Assembly (NCBI GenBank): GCA_013150955.1
Contig: JAADJD010000012.1
Span: 62,001-126,000 of the forward strand
Reading direction: 5' to 3'
Length of the DNA stretch: 64,000 nucleotides
From: Calditrichota bacterium
GTDB lineage: Bacteria > Calditrichota > Calditrichia > RBG-13-44-9 > J042
The position numbers were made by a program, and so were the translations under genes. Shown here in pieces: positions 22,450-33,380 of the stretch (position 1 is the first letter of the stretch; the number at the start of each line of letters is the position of its first letter). The notes beneath the pieces are model-generated. The model made no database searches and was not told where the DNA came from. It saw only the letters and a list, made by a program, of their open reading frames with translations.

Positions 22450-23184
22450 CTAACTTAATTGATCCAGCGTTTTATCCAGTTCACGGAATTGTTTCAAAAC
22501 AGCCTTACGCATCTTTCGGGTATGGGGATTAAACCGATGCATATCCTGAAATAACTGAATAGTATCGCGATTTACCATCTCCACCAGATTTTTCAAAATT
22601 TTATAATCGCGTGTCACCACCCGGGTGGATGGCAATTCCAGTTCCCGCAGGCCGCGCCCCAGAAAATGCGTGAGCGCCAGCGTCCAGGCCATGATGCGAT
22701 CGTGCTCCAGGGCCTCCATTTCCACGGGACGGACACCCAGGTCTCGCCAGAACGCCTTCATCTGCTCGTACCGACCGGCCGAGATGCGTGCCGGTATGAG
22801 CACCACATAATGGCCTTTCAGACTTTTTCGAACAGACTCCGGGCCAAACAGTGGGTGGCTACCCAGAATCTCCACATCTTCCGGTAAAAAATTTAACAAC
22901 AGGTTTATGGGATAATTTTTTACGGAACACACATCCATTACAATGGTTTCGGGTTTTAACAAATTGGCGATGTTTCGAACCAGACCATCCAGCGCTGAAA
23001 TGGGCGTTGCGATAATCACCAGCGGATTGTAACACACCTCTTCCAGCGTGCTAAAAGGATAATTCTCAAATTCAGGCCGGTACTGCTGGTGAGGATCATA
23101 AATCGCCACATGATATTTCTGGTAGAGAAATTGATACAGCAGCTGTCCAAAACGCCCAAAACCAATGATGCCCAACGCTTCCAT
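22450..23184 (-). CDS. Prephenate/arogenate dehydrogenase-like protein (second copy, outside the aro operon)
   Basis: A 244-residue TyrA-type dehydrogenase. The start is ATG 23184, with GGAGGGG seven bases upstream; the in-frame extension to 23214 includes that site and is rejected. It has LGIIGFGRFGQLLY as the NAD(P) fingerprint at the N-terminus, VMDVCSVKNYPIN, the substrate-site motif GSHPLFGPES, and the helical domain MAWTLALTHFLGRGL. It closely parallels the operon copy at 25140-25883 in length and motifs, including a shared C-terminal helix pattern (FQDMHRFNPHTRKMR here, FQDMHRFNPYTKEMR there). It would convert prephenate or arogenate toward tyrosine. It is paired with an anti-sigma-type ATPase. 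The substrate difference between the two copies is unknown. Confidence 0.85.
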   Translation of the reverse strand: MEALGIIGFGRFGQLLYQFLYQKYHVAIYDPHQQYRPEFENYPFSTLEEVCYNPLVIIATPISALDGLVRNIANLLKPETIVMDVCSVKNYPINLLLNFLPEDVEILGSHPLFGPESVRKSLKGHYVVLIPARISAGRYEQMKAFWRDLGVRPVEMEALEHDRIMAWTLALTHFLGRGLRELELPSTRVVTRDYKILKNLVEMVNRDTIQLFQDMHRFNPHTRKMRKAVLKQFRELDKTLDQLS

Positions 23185-23448
23185 TTTACCCCTCCTCATT
23201 AAAATGTTGGTCAATCTTTACGGCTCATGCCAGGATATCAGAAATCCCCCATGAGAATATTAAAGAACCATCTTTCCCGTCTTCCAGGCCAATTACTCAG
23301 GCAATGGCAAATACTCCCCTGTACCTCTCCGGAAACTGCCGAGGCGTTTGTAACCTCCCAGATGATGGATTCGCCCCTCCCCGAAATGGCCTGTATTCAA
23401 ATGATTACTGGAATCCACTTCACGGCTTAATCAACCCGGCATCGGATT

Positions 23449-25139: not shown

Positions 25140-25883
25140 TCATTCCATCTTCTGTATACCATCCAGCTCCGATTTTAAATCGGCAATGGATTTGTACAGT
25201 ACTTCCCGCATTTCTTTTGTATAGGGATTGAACCGATGCATATCCTGGAACAGCTCCACCGTATCGCGATTGATTTTTTCCACCAGCTTGAGAAGATTTT
25301 GATAATCCCGCGTGGACACCGAAGTTTCCGGAAGTGGGAGTCGAATGAGGGCGCGTCCCAGGAAATGGGTTAGGGCCAGACTCCAGGCCATTAAGCGATC
25401 CTGTTCCGCCGGGGTCATTTCCACAATTTGCACCCCAAAGCCTTCCCAGAATTCCCGAAGTTTGCGAAATCGTTCCTGCTTCACCCGCACGGGGGTCAGG
25501 ATGAGGATGTGGTTCTGAAACGAATCCGCGGCCGAATCCGGGCCAAACAGGGGATGGCTGCCCACGATCTCTACCGATTCCGGCAGTTCCTTTTCCAGAA
25601 CCTGCAACGGGTAGATTTTAACCGCGCAAACATCCATCACCAGGGCATCCGACCGAATGATCCCTTTCAATTTTCGGGCAACTTCGTCGATGGCGGCGAC
25701 AGGCACCGCCAGAATCAGGTGAGGCAGGCGGGCAATCTCGGGAAATTCGACAAAAGGTACGCGGGAAAACTTACGCTGATACCGTTTGTAGGGATCGTAC
25801 ACCACCACTTCAACCTGATCCTTCAGATGTTTGTACAGCAATTGCCCAAATCGGCCAAAGCCGATGATACCCAGCGGATTCAT
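25140..25883 (-). CDS. tyrA: Prephenate dehydrogenase, last gene of the aro operon
   Basis: A 247-residue TyrA protein converting prephenate to 4-hydroxyphenylpyruvate with NAD(P). The chosen start is ATG 25883, which overlaps the chorismate synthase stop as ATGA and begins MNPLGIIGFGRFGQLLY, the dinucleotide fingerprint. The longer frame to 25988 lies inside the upstream gene and is rejected. VMDVCAVKIYPLQ, the active-site motif GSHPLFGPDSAADS and the helical-domain element AWSLALTHFLGRALI follow. No ACT domain is present. Translational coupling to a chorismate synthase-chorismate mutase fusion places three consecutive pathway steps next to each other. A paralogue lies at 22450-23184. Confidence 0.9.
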   Translation of the reverse strand: MNPLGIIGFGRFGQLLYKHLKDQVEVVVYDPYKRYQRKFSRVPFVEFPEIARLPHLILAVPVAAIDEVARKLKGIIRSDALVMDVCAVKIYPLQVLEKELPESVEIVGSHPLFGPDSAADSFQNHILILTPVRVKQERFRKLREFWEGFGVQIVEMTPAEQDRLMAWSLALTHFLGRALIRLPLPETSVSTRDYQNLLKLVEKINRDTVELFQDMHRFNPYTKEMREVLYKSIADLKSELDGIQKME

Positions 25884-27223
25884 GACAGCACATCCTCCTG
25901 CACGTTTCGCGAAAAGCGCAACAGCACCTCGGCCAGTTCCTGAACGAAGCCCGCGGGCAGATCCAGCTGCTGACCAAAGGTTTTCCACTGCTGCAACAGT
26001 TCGGTTTCCCGGGTGGGATCCTGAATGGCCTGGCGATTTTTCTGTTTCACCCGGGCAATGCGTTCCACCAGCCGTTTGCGCTGGGCCAGCAGCAGCAACA
26101 GCTGAGTGTCGATGGTATCGATCTGATCGCGGAGCACCTGCAGTGCATCGCTGTGAATCAGCCGCTCCTGCATTAGCAAATGATCAATCAGCACCAGGGC
26201 GACCATGGCTTCGGCCACGGGCACCACCCGGGGACAAATGCAGGGGTCGTGGCGTCCCCCGATTTCAAATTCCACCGGATTGCCCTCATGATCCACCGTG
26301 TGCTGTTTTCTGGCAATGGAAGAGGGCGGTTTGACGGCAATATGCATGACCAGATCATCACCGGTGGAAATGCCCCCCAGCACCCCACCGGCGTGATTGG
26401 TGGCCAGATGAATCCTTCCGGTTGCCTCGTCGCGCACAAACGGATCGTTGTGTTCGCTGCCCTTCATGCGGGCGGCCGCAAAGCCACTGCCCATTCCAAA
26501 GGCTTTGACCGCCCCGATGGACATGAGCGCCCCGGCCAGATCGGCTTCCAGTTTGTGAAACACCGGTTCTCCCAGACCGGGGGGGCAATTTTTGACGACA
26601 ATTTCTACCACCCCTCCCAGAGAATCGCCGGCATTGCGGGCATCCATGATCGCCTGCATCATGCGTTCCGCGGCCTCGGGATCGGGAGCGCGCACAGGGT
26701 TCTTTTCAATTTCCTCCAGATCCACCCGGTTGATTTCAATTTCCCCAACCTGACGGGTGTAGGCAAAAATGCGAATCCCCCGGCGCTCCAGCATCTGTTT
26801 GGCAACCGCACCCGCCGCCACCCGCGCGGCCGTCTCCCGACCACTGGCCCGACCACCGCCGCGATAATCAAATATCCCGTACTTCTTTAAAAACGTAAAC
26901 CCGGCATGTCCCGGACGAAAAATCTTCTGGATGTGGGAATAGTCCTTCGAACGCTGATCCTGATTGGCAATTAATAGACAGATGGGTGTTCCGGTGGTCT
27001 TGCCTTCAAAAATGCCGCTAATCACCTGAACTCGATCTTTCTCCTGACGGGGAGTCACGATGGCGCTTTGTCCCGGTCGCCGTCGATCCAGCTCCCGCTG
27101 AATCCATTCCACATCAATCGGCACACCCGGCTGCACCCCATCGATGACCACACCGATATACGGGCCATGACTCTCCCCGAAAGTCATCACCCGAAAGGCC
27201 TGCCCAAACATATTACCACTCAT
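25880..27223 (-). CDS. aroC: Chorismate synthase fused to AroQ-type chorismate mutase
   Basis: A 447-residue bifunctional protein. Residues about 5-350 are a complete chorismate synthase: FGESHG at 15-20, RRRPGQS near 47, FRPGHAGFTF at 102-111, GGGRASGRETAARVAAGA at 122-139 and RHDPCICPRVVPVAEAM at 324-340. Residues about 358-447 are an AroQ chorismate mutase. Residues aligning with the E. coli active site are kept (R365, R382, K393, R405, E406 and probably Q442). The fusion would make chorismate from EPSP and turn it into prephenate. The start ATG at 27223 has GAGGGG upstream. The next gene, tyrA, overlaps its stop. AroQ is more often fused to DAHP synthase, TyrA or PheA, so this arrangement is unusual. 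Confidence 0.93.
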   Translation of the reverse strand: MSGNMFGQAFRVMTFGESHGPYIGVVIDGVQPGVPIDVEWIQRELDRRRPGQSAIVTPRQEKDRVQVISGIFEGKTTGTPICLLIANQDQRSKDYSHIQKIFRPGHAGFTFLKKYGIFDYRGGGRASGRETAARVAAGAVAKQMLERRGIRIFAYTRQVGEIEINRVDLEEIEKNPVRAPDPEAAERMMQAIMDARNAGDSLGGVVEIVVKNCPPGLGEPVFHKLEADLAGALMSIGAVKAFGMGSGFAAARMKGSEHNDPFVRDEATGRIHLATNHAGGVLGGISTGDDLVMHIAVKPPSSIARKQHTVDHEGNPVEFEIGGRHDPCICPRVVPVAEAMVALVLIDHLLMQERLIHSDALQVLRDQIDTIDTQLLLLLAQRKRLVERIARVKQKNRQAIQDPTRETELLQQWKTFGQQLDLPAGFVQELAEVLLRFSRNVQEDVLS

Positions 27224-27428: not shown

Positions 27429-28007
27429 TCACCGAAAATGGGATTTATCCGTCCCCTGAAGATGCGCCAGAATTTGCTCAACCGCCGTTTCCACGCTTTG
27501 CGCCGACGTGTCCACCCGCAAATGAGAATACCGTGCGTAAAGTGGACGACGCCGATGGTAATTGATCTGCACATCGCGGGAAAGATCCGGGTGCGTAAGC
27601 AAGGGGCGATCCCCACTGCTTTCCAGCCGCTGAATGATGTCCTCCAGTCGGGCATCCACCCAGACGATCAACGCATGTGGCAACAGGCGATTCATATTCC
27701 CCGGATCTTCCACCACTCCCCCGCCACAATCCAGCACCACCTGATTTTTGCCTGCCACTTCCTGCAGTACGTCCCGTTCCACCGCCCGGAAGGCTGGCCA
27801 CCCCTTCTCCTTTACGTACCGGGCAATGGGGCGATTTATGATTTCCTCAATCCGGGCATCGGTGGACACATACGTCCAGCGGAGCCGTTGGGCCAGGGCG
27901 CGCGCCACCGTGGTCTTCCCCGCACCCCGAAAACCAATCAGCACAACGCGATCGATTAAATGACGTTTCCGGGTATTGCCCGGCCTTTTTCCTTTGTTTG
28001 CAGACAC
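27429..28007 (-). CDS. aroK: Shikimate kinase
   Basis: A 192-residue kinase that phosphorylates shikimate at the 3-hydroxyl with ATP. The P-loop is LIGFRGAGKTTVARALA near residues 20-36, STDARIEEIINRPIARY holds the shikimate-binding Asp, and VLDCGGGVVEDPGN is the GGG motif. RPLLTHPD is the lid region, and the adenine-side arginine follows in YHRRRPLYARYS. I place the start at GTG 28007, two bases after the aroA stop and with AGGGG about eight bases upstream. The open frame continues to an ATG at 28112, but that part overlaps aroA by about 100 bp and has no kinase homology. About fifteen extra basic residues precede the P-loop domain. Confidence 0.9.
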   Translation of the reverse strand: MSANKGKRPGNTRKRHLIDRVVLIGFRGAGKTTVARALAQRLRWTYVSTDARIEEIINRPIARYVKEKGWPAFRAVERDVLQEVAGKNQVVLDCGGGVVEDPGNMNRLLPHALIVWVDARLEDIIQRLESSGDRPLLTHPDLSRDVQINYHRRRPLYARYSHLRVDTSAQSVETAVEQILAHLQGTDKSHFR

Positions 28008-28009
28008 GC

Positions 28010-29314
28010 TTAATCCCCTGATGACGGGTTCCCGGCAACAACATCTTCCGCTAATGGGTGATGCAAGCGGCTCAAATCCTCCCAGAATGTCGGATAGGAT
28101 TTTCCCACGCAATCTGGATCGTTAATGACTACTCCCGGAAGGCGCAAACCGGCAAGGGCAAAACTCATGGCAATGCGATGATCCTGGTGGGGATCCACCA
28201 CAGCCCCGTGCCGAACACCGGGTTGGACCACCAGATCGGCCCCGTCCATCTCTGCTTTTCCCCCCAGTCGCTGAATGTTTCCCCGAATGGCCGCAATCCG
28301 ATCCGATTCTTTAAATCGCAAATGCTGCACATTGCGAAACCGCGATTTACTGCTGGCAAACAAAGCCATAACGGCCATTCCGGGCACCAGGTCAGGACAG
28401 GCAGACATGTCCCAGTCCACCCCCTTTAAGCCATTCCCGGAAACGGTAATGCGATCTGGCGTTTCCACTACCCGCGCCCCGGCTGCAGCAAGGATTTTCC
28501 AGACTTCCCGATCCCCCTGGATGGAATGCGTTCCCACATTGGTTATCGTCACGCGTCCTCCCGTTATCGCCGCGCCGATTAAAAAGTAAGAGGCGCTGGA
28601 TACATCGCCCTCCACCGTAAAATCCGGCAGGCAAACTTGCTGTTCTCCTGCAACCCGAAAACCCCGTTCAGTGGTATCCACCCGTACACCGGCCTGCTGG
28701 AGCAACGATAGAGTTAACTGGACATAGGCCCGGGATACCAGCGGCGCCGTCAGTTGAATATGTATTCCCCCGGCAATGCGCGGGGCAATGAGCAGCAACG
28801 CGGAAACATACTGCGAGGATTCCGAGGCATCGATGTCGACCCGTCCCCCCTGCAAGTTGCCGCCGCGAATCCACAACGGCAACTTCCCGTCGGTCGCGTC
28901 GATTCTGGCTCCCAGGGTCCGCAAGGCCTCCAGCAGCGGCGCCATGGGCCGTTGCCGCATACGCGGCGAACCATCGATCCAGATTTCTCCCGGATGCAGA
29001 GCAGCGAATGCCGTCATCAGCCGCGCTGTGGTACCGGAATTCCCCACAAAAATGCGCACCGGACTCCGGGGTGGCACATACTGGCCGGTAAATTGCCAGG
29101 CATTCGGAGCCACCGCCACCTCATAACCCAGCGCCTGCAACGCCTGTAACGTGAATCGGGTATCCTCACTATCCAGTGGATGGGCGATCTTTACCGGTTT
29201 GCGGCTCAGGGCCGCCAGAATCAACGCGCGATGCGTAATGCTCTTCGAAGGCGGCACCCGCACCTCGCCCATCAGGCGTCCGGGAACGATTGCAATTTGA
29301 CCGTTGTGATCCAT
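28010..29314 (-). CDS. aroA: 3-phosphoshikimate 1-carboxyvinyltransferase (EPSP synthase)
   Basis: A 434-residue EPSP synthase joining phosphoenolpyruvate to shikimate 3-phosphate. VPPSKSITHRALILAALS near residues 21-38 is the Lys/Ser substrate site, and FVGNSGTTARLMTAFAA near residue 89 carries the LxNxGTxxR-like PEP-site motif. DASESSQYVSALLLIAP, EGDVSSASYFLIGAAIT, RFKESDRIAAI and DPHQDHRIAMSFALAGL follow in family order. The NSGTTAR form with Gly and Thr is close to the usual glyphosate-sensitive site. The gene is preceded by the aroDE gene after 259 bp and followed by aroK after two bases. No truncation is seen. Confidence 0.93.
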   Translation of the reverse strand: MDHNGQIAIVPGRLMGEVRVPPSKSITHRALILAALSRKPVKIAHPLDSEDTRFTLQALQALGYEVAVAPNAWQFTGQYVPPRSPVRIFVGNSGTTARLMTAFAALHPGEIWIDGSPRMRQRPMAPLLEALRTLGARIDATDGKLPLWIRGGNLQGGRVDIDASESSQYVSALLLIAPRIAGGIHIQLTAPLVSRAYVQLTLSLLQQAGVRVDTTERGFRVAGEQQVCLPDFTVEGDVSSASYFLIGAAITGGRVTITNVGTHSIQGDREVWKILAAAGARVVETPDRITVSGNGLKGVDWDMSACPDLVPGMAVMALFASSKSRFRNVQHLRFKESDRIAAIRGNIQRLGGKAEMDGADLVVQPGVRHGAVVDPHQDHRIAMSFALAGLRLPGVVINDPDCVGKSYPTFWEDLSRLHHPLAEDVVAGNPSSGD

Positions 29315-29517
29315 GCCCTGCCTTTCGTTTCAGCGCACCATTCGAGTAACACTAAAGTTTGCTTTTCCACTCCATTCACTTGCCCACCAACCATCAACCC
29401 ACATTGTGCATGAGCAACCGGTGCGTTCGGGATTTCATAGCCAAATCAACAGATTCCGGTAAAATAATTGGTTCCGACACCGTTCAGATTTACCTGCGAA
29501 AAGATCGTATTCTAATT

Positions 29518-29572
29518 ATTTGTTTTTATTTGGGTTCATCCGCAGCATTCGCGGCCTAACGCTTAATTTGGA
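29518..29572 (+). repeat. Degenerate end of the intergenic repeat
   Basis: A short stretch between aroA and aroDE resembles the Y end of the repeat family ('ttgtttttatttgggttc' through 'cgcttaatttgg'), with many mismatches. If real, it is an old remnant inside the operon. The rest of the 259-bp gap shows nothing. Confidence 0.45.
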
Positions 29573-29573
29573 A

Positions 29574-31067
29574 TCAATTAAAAAACGAAATTTTCTCCCA
29601 GGCCTCTCGCACTTCCTGCACCGAAACCGTCATCCCGGTAAACAACTTGAATTGCCGGGCGGCCTGCAGCAAGAACATGTCCACCCCGGACAGGATATGG
29701 CATCCCCGCTCTTCCGCAATTTGTAAGAATCGTGTTTTCCTGGGATTGTAAATGACATCCAGAACGATGCGATCTTTCTTCAGCAGTTCAATGCCCGGGG
29801 GAACCTGTTCCACATCGGGAAACATCCCCACCGGGGTGGTCTGAATGATCACCGAAGCGCTGGTTCCCTGCACTTCCGAAAAGGTCAGAAAATTGATTCC
29901 GAACAAGCGGGCCAGCCACTGGCCACGTTCGTGATTCCTTCCGGTGACCACAATGGGATACACTTCCAGCCGCTTCAGTGCCGCGATGGCACTCCTTGCG
30001 GTAGCCCCGGTACCAATAATAACCGCACCTTCTCGCAAAACAGACTTGTAAGGCTTTAGCAAATGCTCGATGGCAAACAGATCCGTGTTATGCCCCTTCC
30101 AGCCATTTCGGGTTCGGATCATGGTGTTGCACACCCCGGATATGCGAACGCAGGGGGACTTTTCTTTGAGGTACGCCACCACCGTCTCCTTATGCGGAAT
30201 GGTCACGCTAAGGCCGTACAGATGATCCTTCCAGGTCTGCCAGAATTGAGGGAAGTCCGCCGCGGGGAAATTCACATATACAAACTTTTTCCGTTGATCG
30301 GCACTCAGCTTCTGATGGAATAACAAATTATGAAGCCGATACCCCTTGCTCTGCTTGATGGGATCCCCAACCAGACCAATGATGCGGGCATCGGACGACT
30401 TTTCCGGCAGGAAATAGTGGTACCGGGCACTCTGCAACGTAAACTGCCCGCTGGCGGTCTCTTTGGCCGGACTGAAAGCCACATACGTCCAGGCATTGCC
30501 CCACAGCCCCCCCAGGATACGGGACAACTGTCCTTCTTCCCCCATGGCGTGGATGATGTAGCGGACGCCCTGTTCCCGTGCCACCTCAATCAATTTCCGG
30601 GTCAACAAATTGTCGTTTAAATGATGGGCGCGATAAATCAGCTTATACACGGCTGCCGGTAGAGTAAACATCTGGCGCAAACGGGCAATTAGCGTTTCCG
30701 GATCTGCGCAATCGGTATGATGGGACAGGATCAGCTGCGTTTCCTGTACCTGAAGGTGCGGCACAATTTTCTCCGCACTTTCAAACTCCACATCGATGTA
30801 GTCGAAGCCCGCTTCAATCGCGGATTGAAACAGGGGGATTCGCTTTTCGGGCGCGTCCTGCCAATGGCCACCCTCGCTGGCAAGGCGGCAGGTGTAAATC
30901 AGTGGTCGGGAAAACAATTGTCGCAATGCCGGGAAGTCAACCTGCTGGAATCGATCCAGGCGCAATTCCACCAGATCGGCTTCCTGGCTGTGGGGCGCCC
31001 ATGCTTTTAAGTCCTCCAGTTGCTCTGGCAGCAAGCTCAGGCACAAGGCATTACCCCTGGAGTGCAT
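29574..31067 (-). CDS. aroDE: Bifunctional 3-dehydroquinate dehydratase / shikimate dehydrogenase
   Basis: A 497-residue fusion. Residues 1-220 are a type I dehydroquinase: LVELRLDRF at 32-40, H117 in LILSHHTDC and the Schiff-base lysine candidate K142 in AAVYKLIYRAHH, then HAMGEEGQLSRILGG. Residues about 229-497 are shikimate dehydrogenase: GLVGDPIKQSKGYRLHN, catalytic K293 in LSVTIPHKE, D329 in GHNTDLFA, and the NADP site GTGATARSAIAALKR. The usual second serine of the substrate loop (S-x-S-P) is Gly242 here. Together the domains turn 3-dehydroquinate into shikimate. ATG 31067 follows GAGGAG and overlaps aroB by 17 bp. Fused type I DHQ-SDH enzymes are familiar from plants and some bacteria. 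Confidence 0.92.
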   Translation of the reverse strand: MHSRGNALCLSLLPEQLEDLKAWAPHSQEADLVELRLDRFQQVDFPALRQLFSRPLIYTCRLASEGGHWQDAPEKRIPLFQSAIEAGFDYIDVEFESAEKIVPHLQVQETQLILSHHTDCADPETLIARLRQMFTLPAAVYKLIYRAHHLNDNLLTRKLIEVAREQGVRYIIHAMGEEGQLSRILGGLWGNAWTYVAFSPAKETASGQFTLQSARYHYFLPEKSSDARIIGLVGDPIKQSKGYRLHNLLFHQKLSADQRKKFVYVNFPAADFPQFWQTWKDHLYGLSVTIPHKETVVAYLKEKSPCVRISGVCNTMIRTRNGWKGHNTDLFAIEHLLKPYKSVLREGAVIIGTGATARSAIAALKRLEVYPIVVTGRNHERGQWLARLFGINFLTFSEVQGTSASVIIQTTPVGMFPDVEQVPPGIELLKKDRIVLDVIYNPRKTRFLQIAEERGCHILSGVDMFLLQAARQFKLFTGMTVSVQEVREAWEKISFFN

Positions 31068-32136
31068 GCTTCAACTCCTCCTGTTTTACCGGGTAAAACA
31101 ATGCGGGCTCATCAACGGAACGCATCAGGGTAAAACGAGGCGCCTGTTGCCTGGCCTTTTTATCCGTTACAATGGTATTCCAGATGTCCTCAAAGGCAAA
31201 ACAATGCAACGACATTTCCCTGAGCTCAAACCGATCCAGCAAACGGCACAACCGTTCTACCTGATCCGCAGGATAGCCCAACAGGTCGCGGGAGAGCCGG
31301 AGGGCAATCCGCATTCCAGTAGCAATGGCCATTCCATGTTTTACCCGATACTGGGTGAGCTTTTCAATGGCATGTCCCACCGTATGACCAAAATTCAGGA
31401 TGCTGCGGTAGCCGGCCTCTTTTTCATCGGCCTCAACCACCTGAATTTTCAGGGTCACACAATCGTTTACGATTTGCAATAGCGCATCTTCCTCTCTGGC
31501 CAATATCCGCGAATGATGCTTCTCCAGAAAATCGATCAATTCTGTCTTTAGAATGATACCGTATTTGATCACCTCCGCCAGGCCATTAATGAACTCCTCC
31601 CGTGGAAGGGTGCGCAGGTATCGAATGTCGGTGAAGATCGCCACCGGCTGGTAAAACGCACCGATAAGGTTCTTTCCCTGCTGGTGATTAATGCCCACTT
31701 TTCCTCCGATTGAACTGTCCACCTGAGCCAGCAAGCTGGTGGGAATGTGGATTAAAGGAATGCCTCGATGCAGGGTTGCGGCGACAAAACCGGCCAGATC
31801 TCCCGTTACTCCCCCGCCAATGGCCAGAAGTACGGTATCGCGGCCGGCACGGGCAGATAATAACTGATCTTCCAGCAGCGACTTGGTGCGGCGACTCTTG
31901 CTGAATTCTCCCGCCGGGAATTTCAAAATTTTTTTGAAGCCCGCATGGGTTAACAAATGATCCCGAACCCGCTGGGCGTAAATGGAATAAACATGATCAT
32001 CCATGATCGCAAAAACGGCATGGGCTGGATAGACCTTCTTTAACCAGGTCACCAGCTGCTTTTCCAATCCCCTCCCGATGTAAACCGGAATTCGGGTTTC
32101 CTGCGATTTAATTCGTATATATAACGGATTCTTCAT
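31051..32136 (-). CDS. aroB: 3-dehydroquinate synthase
   Basis: A 361-residue NAD- and metal-dependent enzyme that cyclises DAHP to 3-dehydroquinate. [17 protein letters not shown] near residue 105 is the glycine-rich NAD site. [20 protein letters not shown] and [10 protein letters not shown] carry substrate-binding residues, and the metal ligands appear in [14 protein letters not shown] and in the [10 protein letters not shown] segment. Length matches the family. Its ATG lies 29 bp inside aroF and its end overlaps aroDE by 17 bp, so aroF-aroB-aroDE are translationally linked. No regulatory domain is present. Confidence 0.95.
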
Positions 32137-33139
32137 TTCTCAGCCATTTGACCAGACTGTCCAGTTTTCTCATCAGCAGCGCAAATTGATCCGGGGAAAG
32201 GGTTTGATCGGCATCCGACCAGGAACGCTCGGGCTGGGGATGCACTTCAATCAGTAACCCGTCTGCACCGGAAACAATGGCTGCCAGACTCAACGGAATC
32301 ACCAGCTCCCGACGTCCTGTTCCGTGACTGGGATCGACCAGAATGGGCAAATGCGATACCCGCTTAATCATGGGCACAATATTTAAATCCAGGGTGTTTC
32401 GGGAATATTCCACAAAGGTTCGAATCCCCCGTTCACACAGGATGACATTGGGGTTACCCTCAGACAGGATGTACTCCGCACTTAACAAAAACTCTGTTAA
32501 GGTTGCGGAAAGCCCTCTTTTCAGCAGGACGGGTTTGTCAATCTTGCCGACGGCTTTCAACAATTTGTAATTTTGCATGTTGCGGGCTCCAATCTGCAAA
32601 ATGTCGGCATATTCCGCTACCATGGGGACATCCATGGCATCCAACACCTCAGTAACAATATAGAGACCCGTTTCCTCCTTTGCTTTTTTCAGCAGCTTTA
32701 AGCCGTCTTCCCCCAATCCCTGGAAACTATACGGACTGGTACGCGGCTTAAACGCACCCCCCCGCAACAACTGCGCCCCATGGGCCTTGACCAATCGGGC
32801 GGTTTCGATAATCTGCTTCTCGCTTTCCACGGAGCAGGGACCTGCGATCACCACCGGCTGCTCTCCACCAATTTCCACGCCGTTTAACCGAACGATGGTA
32901 TCCTGTTCCTTAAATTCACGGCTCACCAGTTTATAGGGCTTCAAAATACTGACCACATCCTCCACCCCAGGCAGTACCTTGATCTGTTCCTTCTGGATAT
33001 TCCGCTTGTCCCCAATAACGCCAATGACGATCTTTTCCTGCCCCCGCGACAGATGAGTCCGTGCACCCAGCGCTTCAACAAACTCGATCACATTCATGAT
33101 CTCGTCTTCGGAAGCGTGTCGATTCATCACAATGACCAT
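32108..33139 (-). CDS. aroF: 3-deoxy-7-phosphoheptulonate synthase (DAHP synthase, type I-beta with regulatory domain)
   Basis: A 343-residue first enzyme of the shikimate pathway, condensing PEP and erythrose 4-phosphate. Start ATG 33139 has GGAGGAGA just upstream; the frame open to 33208 includes the attenuator terminator and is rejected. Residues 1-75 form the ferredoxin-like (ACT-like) domain seen in the Thermotoga enzyme, which binds Tyr or Phe there. The barrel follows with [54 protein letters not shown] and [11 protein letters not shown]. It should therefore be feedback-inhibited, in addition to transcription attenuation by the leader directly upstream. It is the first structural gene of the aro operon. 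Confidence 0.95.
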
Positions 33140-33168: not shown

Positions 33169-33199
33169 AAAAAGCCCCTCTCAGTAGATTGAGAGGGGC
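33169..33199 (-). terminator. Attenuator terminator (3:4 hairpin) before aroF
   Basis: On the minus strand GCCCCTCTCA (33199-33190) and TGAGAGGGGC (33183-33174) form a perfect 10-bp stem with an ATCTAC loop, followed by TTTTT. It lies 30 bp before the aroF start. Its 5' arm and loop are fully complementary to the upstream segment at 33236-33220, so the terminator and an antiterminator exclude each other. Confidence 0.93.
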
Positions 33200-33306
33200 C
33201 GGGAACATTGTGTTATGGACTCAATCTACTGAGAGGCGGGACCTACTGGGTCCAATAATAATACCCAAAATAAAAACCAAAAAAGTGGTTCAGCCTCTCA
33301 GTAGAT
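33174..33306 (-). promoter_or_regulatory. Aromatic amino acid transcription attenuator (competing RNA segments)
   Basis: Three overlapping pairings can be read directly. Segment 1, ATCTACTGAGAGGC (33306-33293, inside leader codons 2-7), is a perfect 14-bp complement of segment 2, GCCTCTCAGTAGAT (33237-33224). Segment 2 extended, CCTCTCAGTAGATTGAG (33236-33220), is a perfect 17-bp complement of CTCAATCTACTGAGAGG (33193-33177), which spans the 5' arm, loop and 3' arm of the terminator. The third choice is the terminator hairpin itself. Forming 2:3 destroys the terminator; forming 1:2 or covering segment 2 frees it. Segment 2 begins five bases after the leader stop codon, where a terminating ribosome would mask it. 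Confidence 0.9.
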
Positions 33307-33311
33307 GCCAT
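33243..33311 (-). CDS. aroL-leader: Leader peptide of the aro operon, rich in Phe, Tyr and Trp
   Basis: A 22-codon open frame from ATG 33311 to TAG 33243. It starts MASTERLNH, continues FFGFYFGYYYW at residues 10-20 and ends TQ. Eleven of the codons in positions 10-20 include four Phe, four Tyr and one Trp, the products of the pathway encoded downstream. This is the classic design of an amino-acid-sensing leader peptide: shortage of charged tRNA stalls the ribosome in this run. A purine-rich stretch (AGGG, then GAAGAAG) precedes the ATG and may be the ribosome-binding site. The symbol is descriptive only. It is far too short for automatic gene callers. Confidence 0.92.
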   Translation of the reverse strand: MASTERLNHFFGFYFGYYYWTQ

Positions 33312-33352
33312 CACGTCTTCTTCTACCCTTTTTTCTTCAAATTTGACCCATT

Positions 33353-33380
33353 AATATAATAATTTTGTGATGAATTTCAA
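33353..33380 (-). promoter_or_regulatory. Sigma-70-like promoter of the aro leader
   Basis: On the minus strand, TTGAAA (33380-33375) and TATATT (33358-33353) are separated by 16 bases. They would start transcription near 33346, about 35 bases before the leader ATG. This is the only good promoter match found ahead of the leader. Confidence 0.65.

Follow-up and report, generated by a model that had tools for sequence, protein, structure and literature searches.

A predicted ribosome-mediated attenuator with a Phe/Tyr-rich leader peptide upstream of the aro operon in a Calditrichota bacterium

We conclude with high confidence that the leader of the aro operon, in the 64,000-nucleotide stretch of Calditrichota DNA analysed here (the window), works as a transcription attenuator governed by the translating ribosome, like trpL and pheL. 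The switch very probably turns the whole aromatic pathway on when Phe/Tyr are scarce. The in silico results comprise the elements themselves, their persistence in relatives, a few compensatory changes and an energetic switch.

Leader elements and the aro operon

A sequence check placed all elements of the aro leader on the minus strand, as follows.

33353..33380, minus strand: sigma-70-like promoter TTGAAA-16-TATATT, 10/12 matches, predicted only
33243..33311, minus strand: leader peptide ORF MASTERLNHFFGFYFGYYYWTQ, 22 codons, ATG at 33311, TAG stop at 33245-33243
33252..33284, minus strand: control codons 10-20, FFGFYFGYYYW, with 4 Phe, 4 Tyr and 1 Trp
33293..33306, minus strand: segment 1, ATCTACTGAGAGGC, which pairs with segment 2; within codons 2-7, ahead of the control codons
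33220..33237, minus strand: segment 2, common to the 1:2 and 2:3 helices; begins 5 nt past the leader stop
33177..33193, minus strand: segment 3, which pairs over 17 bp with segment 2 as the antiterminator
33169..33199, minus strand: intrinsic terminator, 10-bp stem (33199-33190 with 33183-33174), loop of 6 nt, T5

The 1:2 helix is a perfect pairing of 14 bp (33306-33293 with 33237-33224), and the 2:3 helix a perfect pairing of 17 bp (33236-33220 with 33193-33177) that overlaps the terminator. An earlier note on this DNA had described the promoter pair, the 22-codon frame, both pairings and the terminator, and by coordinates each was exact. The TTTTT of the terminator runs to 33169, and the aroF ATG lies at 33139. 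Folding of the 182-nt leader gave z = -4.5, a stability equalled in 0 of 200 shuffles. The terminator was the strongest terminator-like site on the minus strand in 8.8 kb; within the same strand and distance, no similar terminator was found inside the aro operon.

The genes behind the leader were assigned with Pfam.

32108..33139, minus strand: aroF, DAHP synthase with a ferredoxin-like regulatory domain (PF00793 + PF18152)
31051..32136, minus strand: aroB, 3-dehydroquinate synthase
29574..31067, minus strand: aroD-aroE fusion, type I dehydroquinase and shikimate dehydrogenase
28010..29314, minus strand: aroA, EPSP synthase
27429..28112, minus strand: aroK, shikimate kinase, true start probably within the frame
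25880..27223, minus strand: aroC-chorismate mutase fusion (PF01264 + PF01817)
25140..25988, minus strand: tyrA, prephenate dehydrogenase (PF02153)

By these assignments, the order aroF-aroB-aroDE-aroA-aroK-aroC:CM-tyrA encodes all seven steps of the common pathway and the first two steps towards Tyr. The leader had been said to precede every shikimate step plus chorismate mutase and prephenate dehydrogenase, and both the Pfam domains and the conservation of the operon agree. The order comprises sixteen genomes, the window genome being G000. The aro gene order was kept in G001 and G003, and in G002 up to the contig end. A shorter operon, aroF-aroA-aroC:CM-tyrA, was seen in G009 and G005. In the window, 259 nt (29315-29573) separate aroDE from aroA, a gap that is far smaller in G001 and G003.

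Just behind the aro operon, a second TyrA-like paralogue (22450-23214) and tyrA (25140-25988) flank an EamA transporter; the same arrangement, with two prephenate dehydrogenases, was also present in G001 and G003. Elsewhere in the window genome, prephenate dehydratase and a second DAHP synthase adjoin each other, and trpE lies at another place. No convincing leader was found upstream of the second DAHP synthase genes of the order.

Conservation and pairing within the order

Seven genomes, spanning two families, had a complete region upstream of an orthologous aroF (66-95% identity) and formed the informative set: G000, G001, G003, G005, G007, G009 and G011. An aromatic-rich leader ORF and a terminator stood before aroF in all seven. 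The leader peptides (MASTERLNHFFGFYFGYYYWTQ, MASTERLVRLFNFYFGYYWTW, MVQSIEKQWSLTNVFYFYYYWGFYVSASQ, MVCKMVYFEFQLYYFYYFP, MKSLKNTFYYYGYYYYFGGWCSDSQ, MKSFESREYYQTFDYYGFYFYGGSNSRLSID and MKTNVNKIYYFSYYFYQRGYSINLP) vary in exact sequence: F and Y interchange freely, and the aromatic residues differ in order, length and position, while aromatic content and number are kept. TnaC, a tryptophan-dependent arrest peptide, offers a precedent for a leader at which a free aromatic metabolite and the nascent chain together stall the ribosome. Divergent sequences with a constant number of aromatic residues fit sensing of charged tRNA rather than a specific nascent chain, and we regard an arrest peptide as very unlikely here.

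The terminator core occurred as one copy per genome, before aroF, in G000-G003, G009, G011 and G012. G005 carried a single copy with one mismatch, at another place, and the G002 contig stops inside an identical terminator. The promoter hexamers were identical in G001 and took the form TTGNNN-17-TATNTT in four more relatives; no promoter pair was found in G003 by the rule used for the others. With promoter-like matches at background frequency, the leader promoter is only a prediction, which matching hexamers in five of the six relatives examined support. The leader Shine-Dalgarno sequence, as read, is weak in most relatives. Upstream of the DAHP synthase of G012 (L112/L157), the same terminator and an antiterminator-like sequence were present with no readable aromatic ORF; this leader may have decayed, contain a sequence error or rely on another sensor.

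The position of the leader stop relative to segment 2 was examined in the relatives. Segment 2 contains the stop codon in G003 and G009 and runs into the last part of the leader frame in G011, so that a terminating ribosome would cover segment 2. In G007 the sequences of segments 2 and 3 are entirely different, with the same alternative-helix logic.

Pairing was counted across the five leaders that could be aligned. In the 1:2 helix 90% of cells were paired, with three doubly changed pairs, and the covariation score was reached by 1 of 500 shuffles. The terminator had 98% paired cells and two doubly changed pairs. For the 2:3 helix (94% paired, one doubly changed pair) shuffles often did as well, giving no distinction. 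With five sequences these counts are supportive, short of conclusive. The comparison with relatives that the earlier note proposed thus yielded the aromatic codon run in 7/7 genomes and pairings with some compensatory changes.

The 1:2 helix was strong in G000, G001, G003 and G011 (-18 to -31 kcal/mol), was lost in G009, and was not seen on inspection of G007 and G005. Since it is kept in only 4/7 genomes, it appears to be an optional layer on a core of control codons, segment 2, antiterminator and terminator found in all seven.

Could the hairpin be a mere terminator or insulator of upstream transcription, with the frame a chance ORF? AT-rich DNA gives F/Y-rich frames more readily, and promoter-like matches near the leader were no commoner than in shuffles. 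However, 3 of 2120 shuffled upstream regions gave a frame with 7 or more F/Y/W in 10 residues (8 or more, 2 of 2120), against 7/7 informative genomes. The mutually exclusive helices carry compensatory changes, and the energetic switch described below was absent in shuffles. We consider this explanation highly improbable.

Ribosome position and the proposed switch

For transcription start, termination, ribosome stalling and regulation in the cell, we infer the following course. Transcription would start about 35 nt before the 22-codon leader frame. Under a shortage of charged Phe- or Tyr-tRNA, the ribosome would wait in FFGFYFGYYYW, between segments 1 and 2, leaving segment 2 free to pair with segment 3; the 2:3 helix would block the terminator and RNA polymerase would enter the aro operon. 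With an ample aromatic pool, the ribosome would reach the stop, where its footprint would extend into segment 2 and weaken the 2:3 helix. The 3:4 terminator would then form and transcription would end near 33169. On an untranslated leader, or after the ribosome has departed, the 14-bp 1:2 helix would capture segment 2, making termination the default. This helix may double as a pause hairpin for RNA polymerase. Because segment 1 lies upstream of the control codons, something would have to hold this helix open during a stall, either the ribosome's own bulk or a second ribosome at the start codon.

The predicted switch was modelled by placing a ribosome at each codon and barring upstream sequence from pairing across it (the barrier model), with G(terminator)-G(no terminator) in kcal/mol as the score. 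The window leader scored +4 to +9 at every aromatic codon, where antitermination is favoured, then -2.2 once the stop occupies the A site, -7.7 past the stop and -11.6 without a ribosome. A terminating ribosome, as the note had supposed, would therefore favour the terminator in this model. In the same scan, with letters verified, E. coli pheL gave the same energy profile as the window leader and trpL a weaker one.

In the barrier model each advance of the ribosome takes away upstream sequence, which by itself shifts the balance towards termination; a shuffle control was added for that reason. The energy difference between aromatic codons and stop exceeded that in 60/60 shuffles of the intervening region in all seven genomes. 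In G009, G007 and G005 the energy at the aromatic codons was near zero or mildly pro-terminator, a tilt much smaller than the one at the stop; the flip in G005 comes within the aromatic run. The trpE leader of G003 responded little in the same scan, its terminator being only slightly weakened at the Trp codons; the scan thus does not resolve every plausible attenuator.

The outcome depended on how the ribosome was represented. With a mask-only ribosome, the 1:2 helix closed around the ribosome and the switch failed for stalls after about codon 11, including those at Tyr codons; adding a second ribosome at the start restored it. The note had rightly placed segment 1 at codons 2-7, upstream of the sensing codons, and it is this geometry on which mask-only folding fails. 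A ribosome stalled between the segments, which the note proposed could block 1:2, gave a working switch when treated as a barrier and failed to for most codons when treated as a mask. In the 4/7 genomes with a 1:2 helix, segment 1 is upstream of the control codons, and keeping the helix apart during a stall would take steric exclusion or a queued ribosome behind the first. The geometry poses a testable question: can a ribosome in a hairpin loop hold that hairpin open?

Related leaders and the signals sensed

The closest models are E. coli pheL-pheA and trpL-trpE, which share with the window a leader with control codons, 1:2, 2:3 and 3:4 helices and a terminator before the first gene. Each responds mainly to a single amino acid and governs a terminal branch, whereas the window leader carries Phe and Tyr codons before the common pathway. 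In E. coli pheL and trpL segment 1 overlaps the control codons, unlike the window, where it lies upstream of them. The E. coli ilvGMEDA and thrABC leaders, with codons for several related end products, resemble the window leader in reading more than one amino acid; their specificity is for branched-chain amino acids or Thr/Ile, in other operons.

T-boxes control aro and trp genes in Firmicutes, a precedent for a terminator governed by a T-box or by some other leader that senses a ligand or a protein. Against this, Rfam gave no match to the window at gathering score for any family, T-boxes included, a permissive threshold returned only matches far below gathering, and such a leader would leave the conserved aromatic ORF unexplained. 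We find this reading barely credible. Among the Rfam models for leaders of the attenuator type (Trp_leader, Phe leader and others), the window leader fell below every gathering score.

The earlier note knew of no described leader with such a combination, which understates the precedents: this type of switch, and leaders for several amino acids such as ilvGMEDA and thr, are textbook material, and two parallels before a DAHP synthase gene are described. The first is the aroR-aroF attenuator of Corynebacterium glutamicum, reportedly described by Neshat et al. in 2014 (cited in PMC11802643). There, a Phe-Tyr-Phe leader stands before a DAHP synthase gene (PMC11802643, PMC4046766) and responds to Phe limitation, not Tyr (PMC11802643). 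Likened by description, aroR shares with the window its Phe/Tyr codons before a DAHP synthase gene, but has only Phe-Tyr-Phe and belongs to Actinobacteria. The second is the uORFC-13-1 motif before aroF, which combines a short ORF containing Phe codon(s) with a terminator and occurs only in Acholeplasma and in unknown environmental organisms (PMC8632094). One or more Phe codons stand in its U run, and its structure is described differently from that of the window. A hypothesised attenuator at E. coli aroF is also mentioned there (PMC8632094). In 2010, leader-peptide systems were stated to be known until then only in Proteobacteria and Actinobacteria, with Firmicutes added in that work (PMC2965389). 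In the open-access literature we found no description of such a leader, or of shikimate-pathway regulation, for the present bacterial group. Priority for mixed aromatic leaders is uncertain. Within known ribosome-mediated attenuation, the window leader is marked by its pooled aromatic specificity and the unusual placement of segment 1.

Outside the order but within its class, 20 further upstream regions yielded no leader with at least 5 F/Y/W in 10 residues. Scanning the sequence ahead of aroF across many phyla turned up other mixed-aromatic leaders. By the same rule they were present in 23/30 regions of an Acidobacteriota order (L167-L200; shuffles 10/600; terminator in 20/23) and in 18/27 of a Planctomycetota order (L201-L230; shuffles 3/540; terminator in 14/18), samples centred on leader-bearing genomes and close aroF homologues, so that the fractions are not phylum-wide. 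The leader ORFs in both phyla lie about 80-250 nt upstream of aroF. A folding scan, run without a shuffle control, went in the same direction in 18/19 testable Acidobacteriota and 7/7 testable Planctomycetota cases. At ten loci from the present order, Acidobacteriota, Planctomycetota and G070, Rfam gave no match above gathering score.

Towards the C terminus the Planctomycetota peptides have an SPPGRGAGGG-like stretch in common, which may reflect pairing of the corresponding RNA within the antiterminator. Outside these two phyla, candidate leaders of the aromatic kind preceded aroF at L014 (G070) and L082 (Brachyspira).

We advance only tentatively, at a little under an even chance, the view that in several non-proteobacterial phyla control of the first shikimate enzyme, AroF with its ferredoxin-like domain, by pan-aromatic leaders either goes back to an ancestor or arose more than once. 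The window version would then be one with its control codons in the 1:2 loop, opened by steric exclusion or a queued second ribosome.

Which amino acids are sensed was considered from codon content. The numbers of Phe, Tyr and Trp codons (F/Y/W) in the seven leaders of the order were 4/4/1, 3/3/2, 3/5/2, 4/5/0, 2/7/1, 4/6/0 and 2/6/0; Trp codons (1, 2, 2, 0, 1, 0 and 0) were absent in 3/7. The window genome also has a trpE leader, MNGFLFKYTPKKSWWWWTLTRSGWRW (G000:C49, L119/L160), with WWWW and its own terminator, which suggests that attenuation is used elsewhere in the organism too. Relatives likewise have a trpE leader with a terminator (L161, L162, L163, L165), conserved in G001 and G003 (WWWW) and Trp-rich in G004 and G010 (WWW). 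Because three of the seven aroF leaders lack Trp and a separate WWWW leader precedes trpE, the conserved signals of the aroF leader in this clade appear to be Phe and Tyr, with Trp sensing weak. The earlier claim that the leader senses all three end products thus stands for Phe and Tyr and is overstated for Trp, which has one codon here.

A stricter form of the proposal, in which the same attenuator has a stall signal that is effectively Phe/Tyr only, with Trp read through the trpE leader and the single Trp codon incidental, seems to us reasonably probable. The variable Trp codons and the WWWW or WWW trpE leaders in five genomes favour it, as does C. glutamicum AroR, on which only Phe limitation had an effect (PMC11802643). 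On the other side, a stall at Trp codon 20 still antiterminated strongly in the folding scan (+9.4), and all three aromatic residues occur in 22/23 Acidobacteriota and 16/18 Planctomycetota peptides.

The best reading of the attenuator is a division of labour in which Phe/Tyr, with some Trp, would govern the common pathway and the Tyr branch, and Trp the trp branch. The order would thus have a conserved, testable circuit, with the aromatics pooled by one leader at the common pathway and the trp branch served by another that is rich in Trp. The recurrence of such leaders in Acidobacteriota and Planctomycetota, with no Rfam match, suggests a widespread regulatory class.
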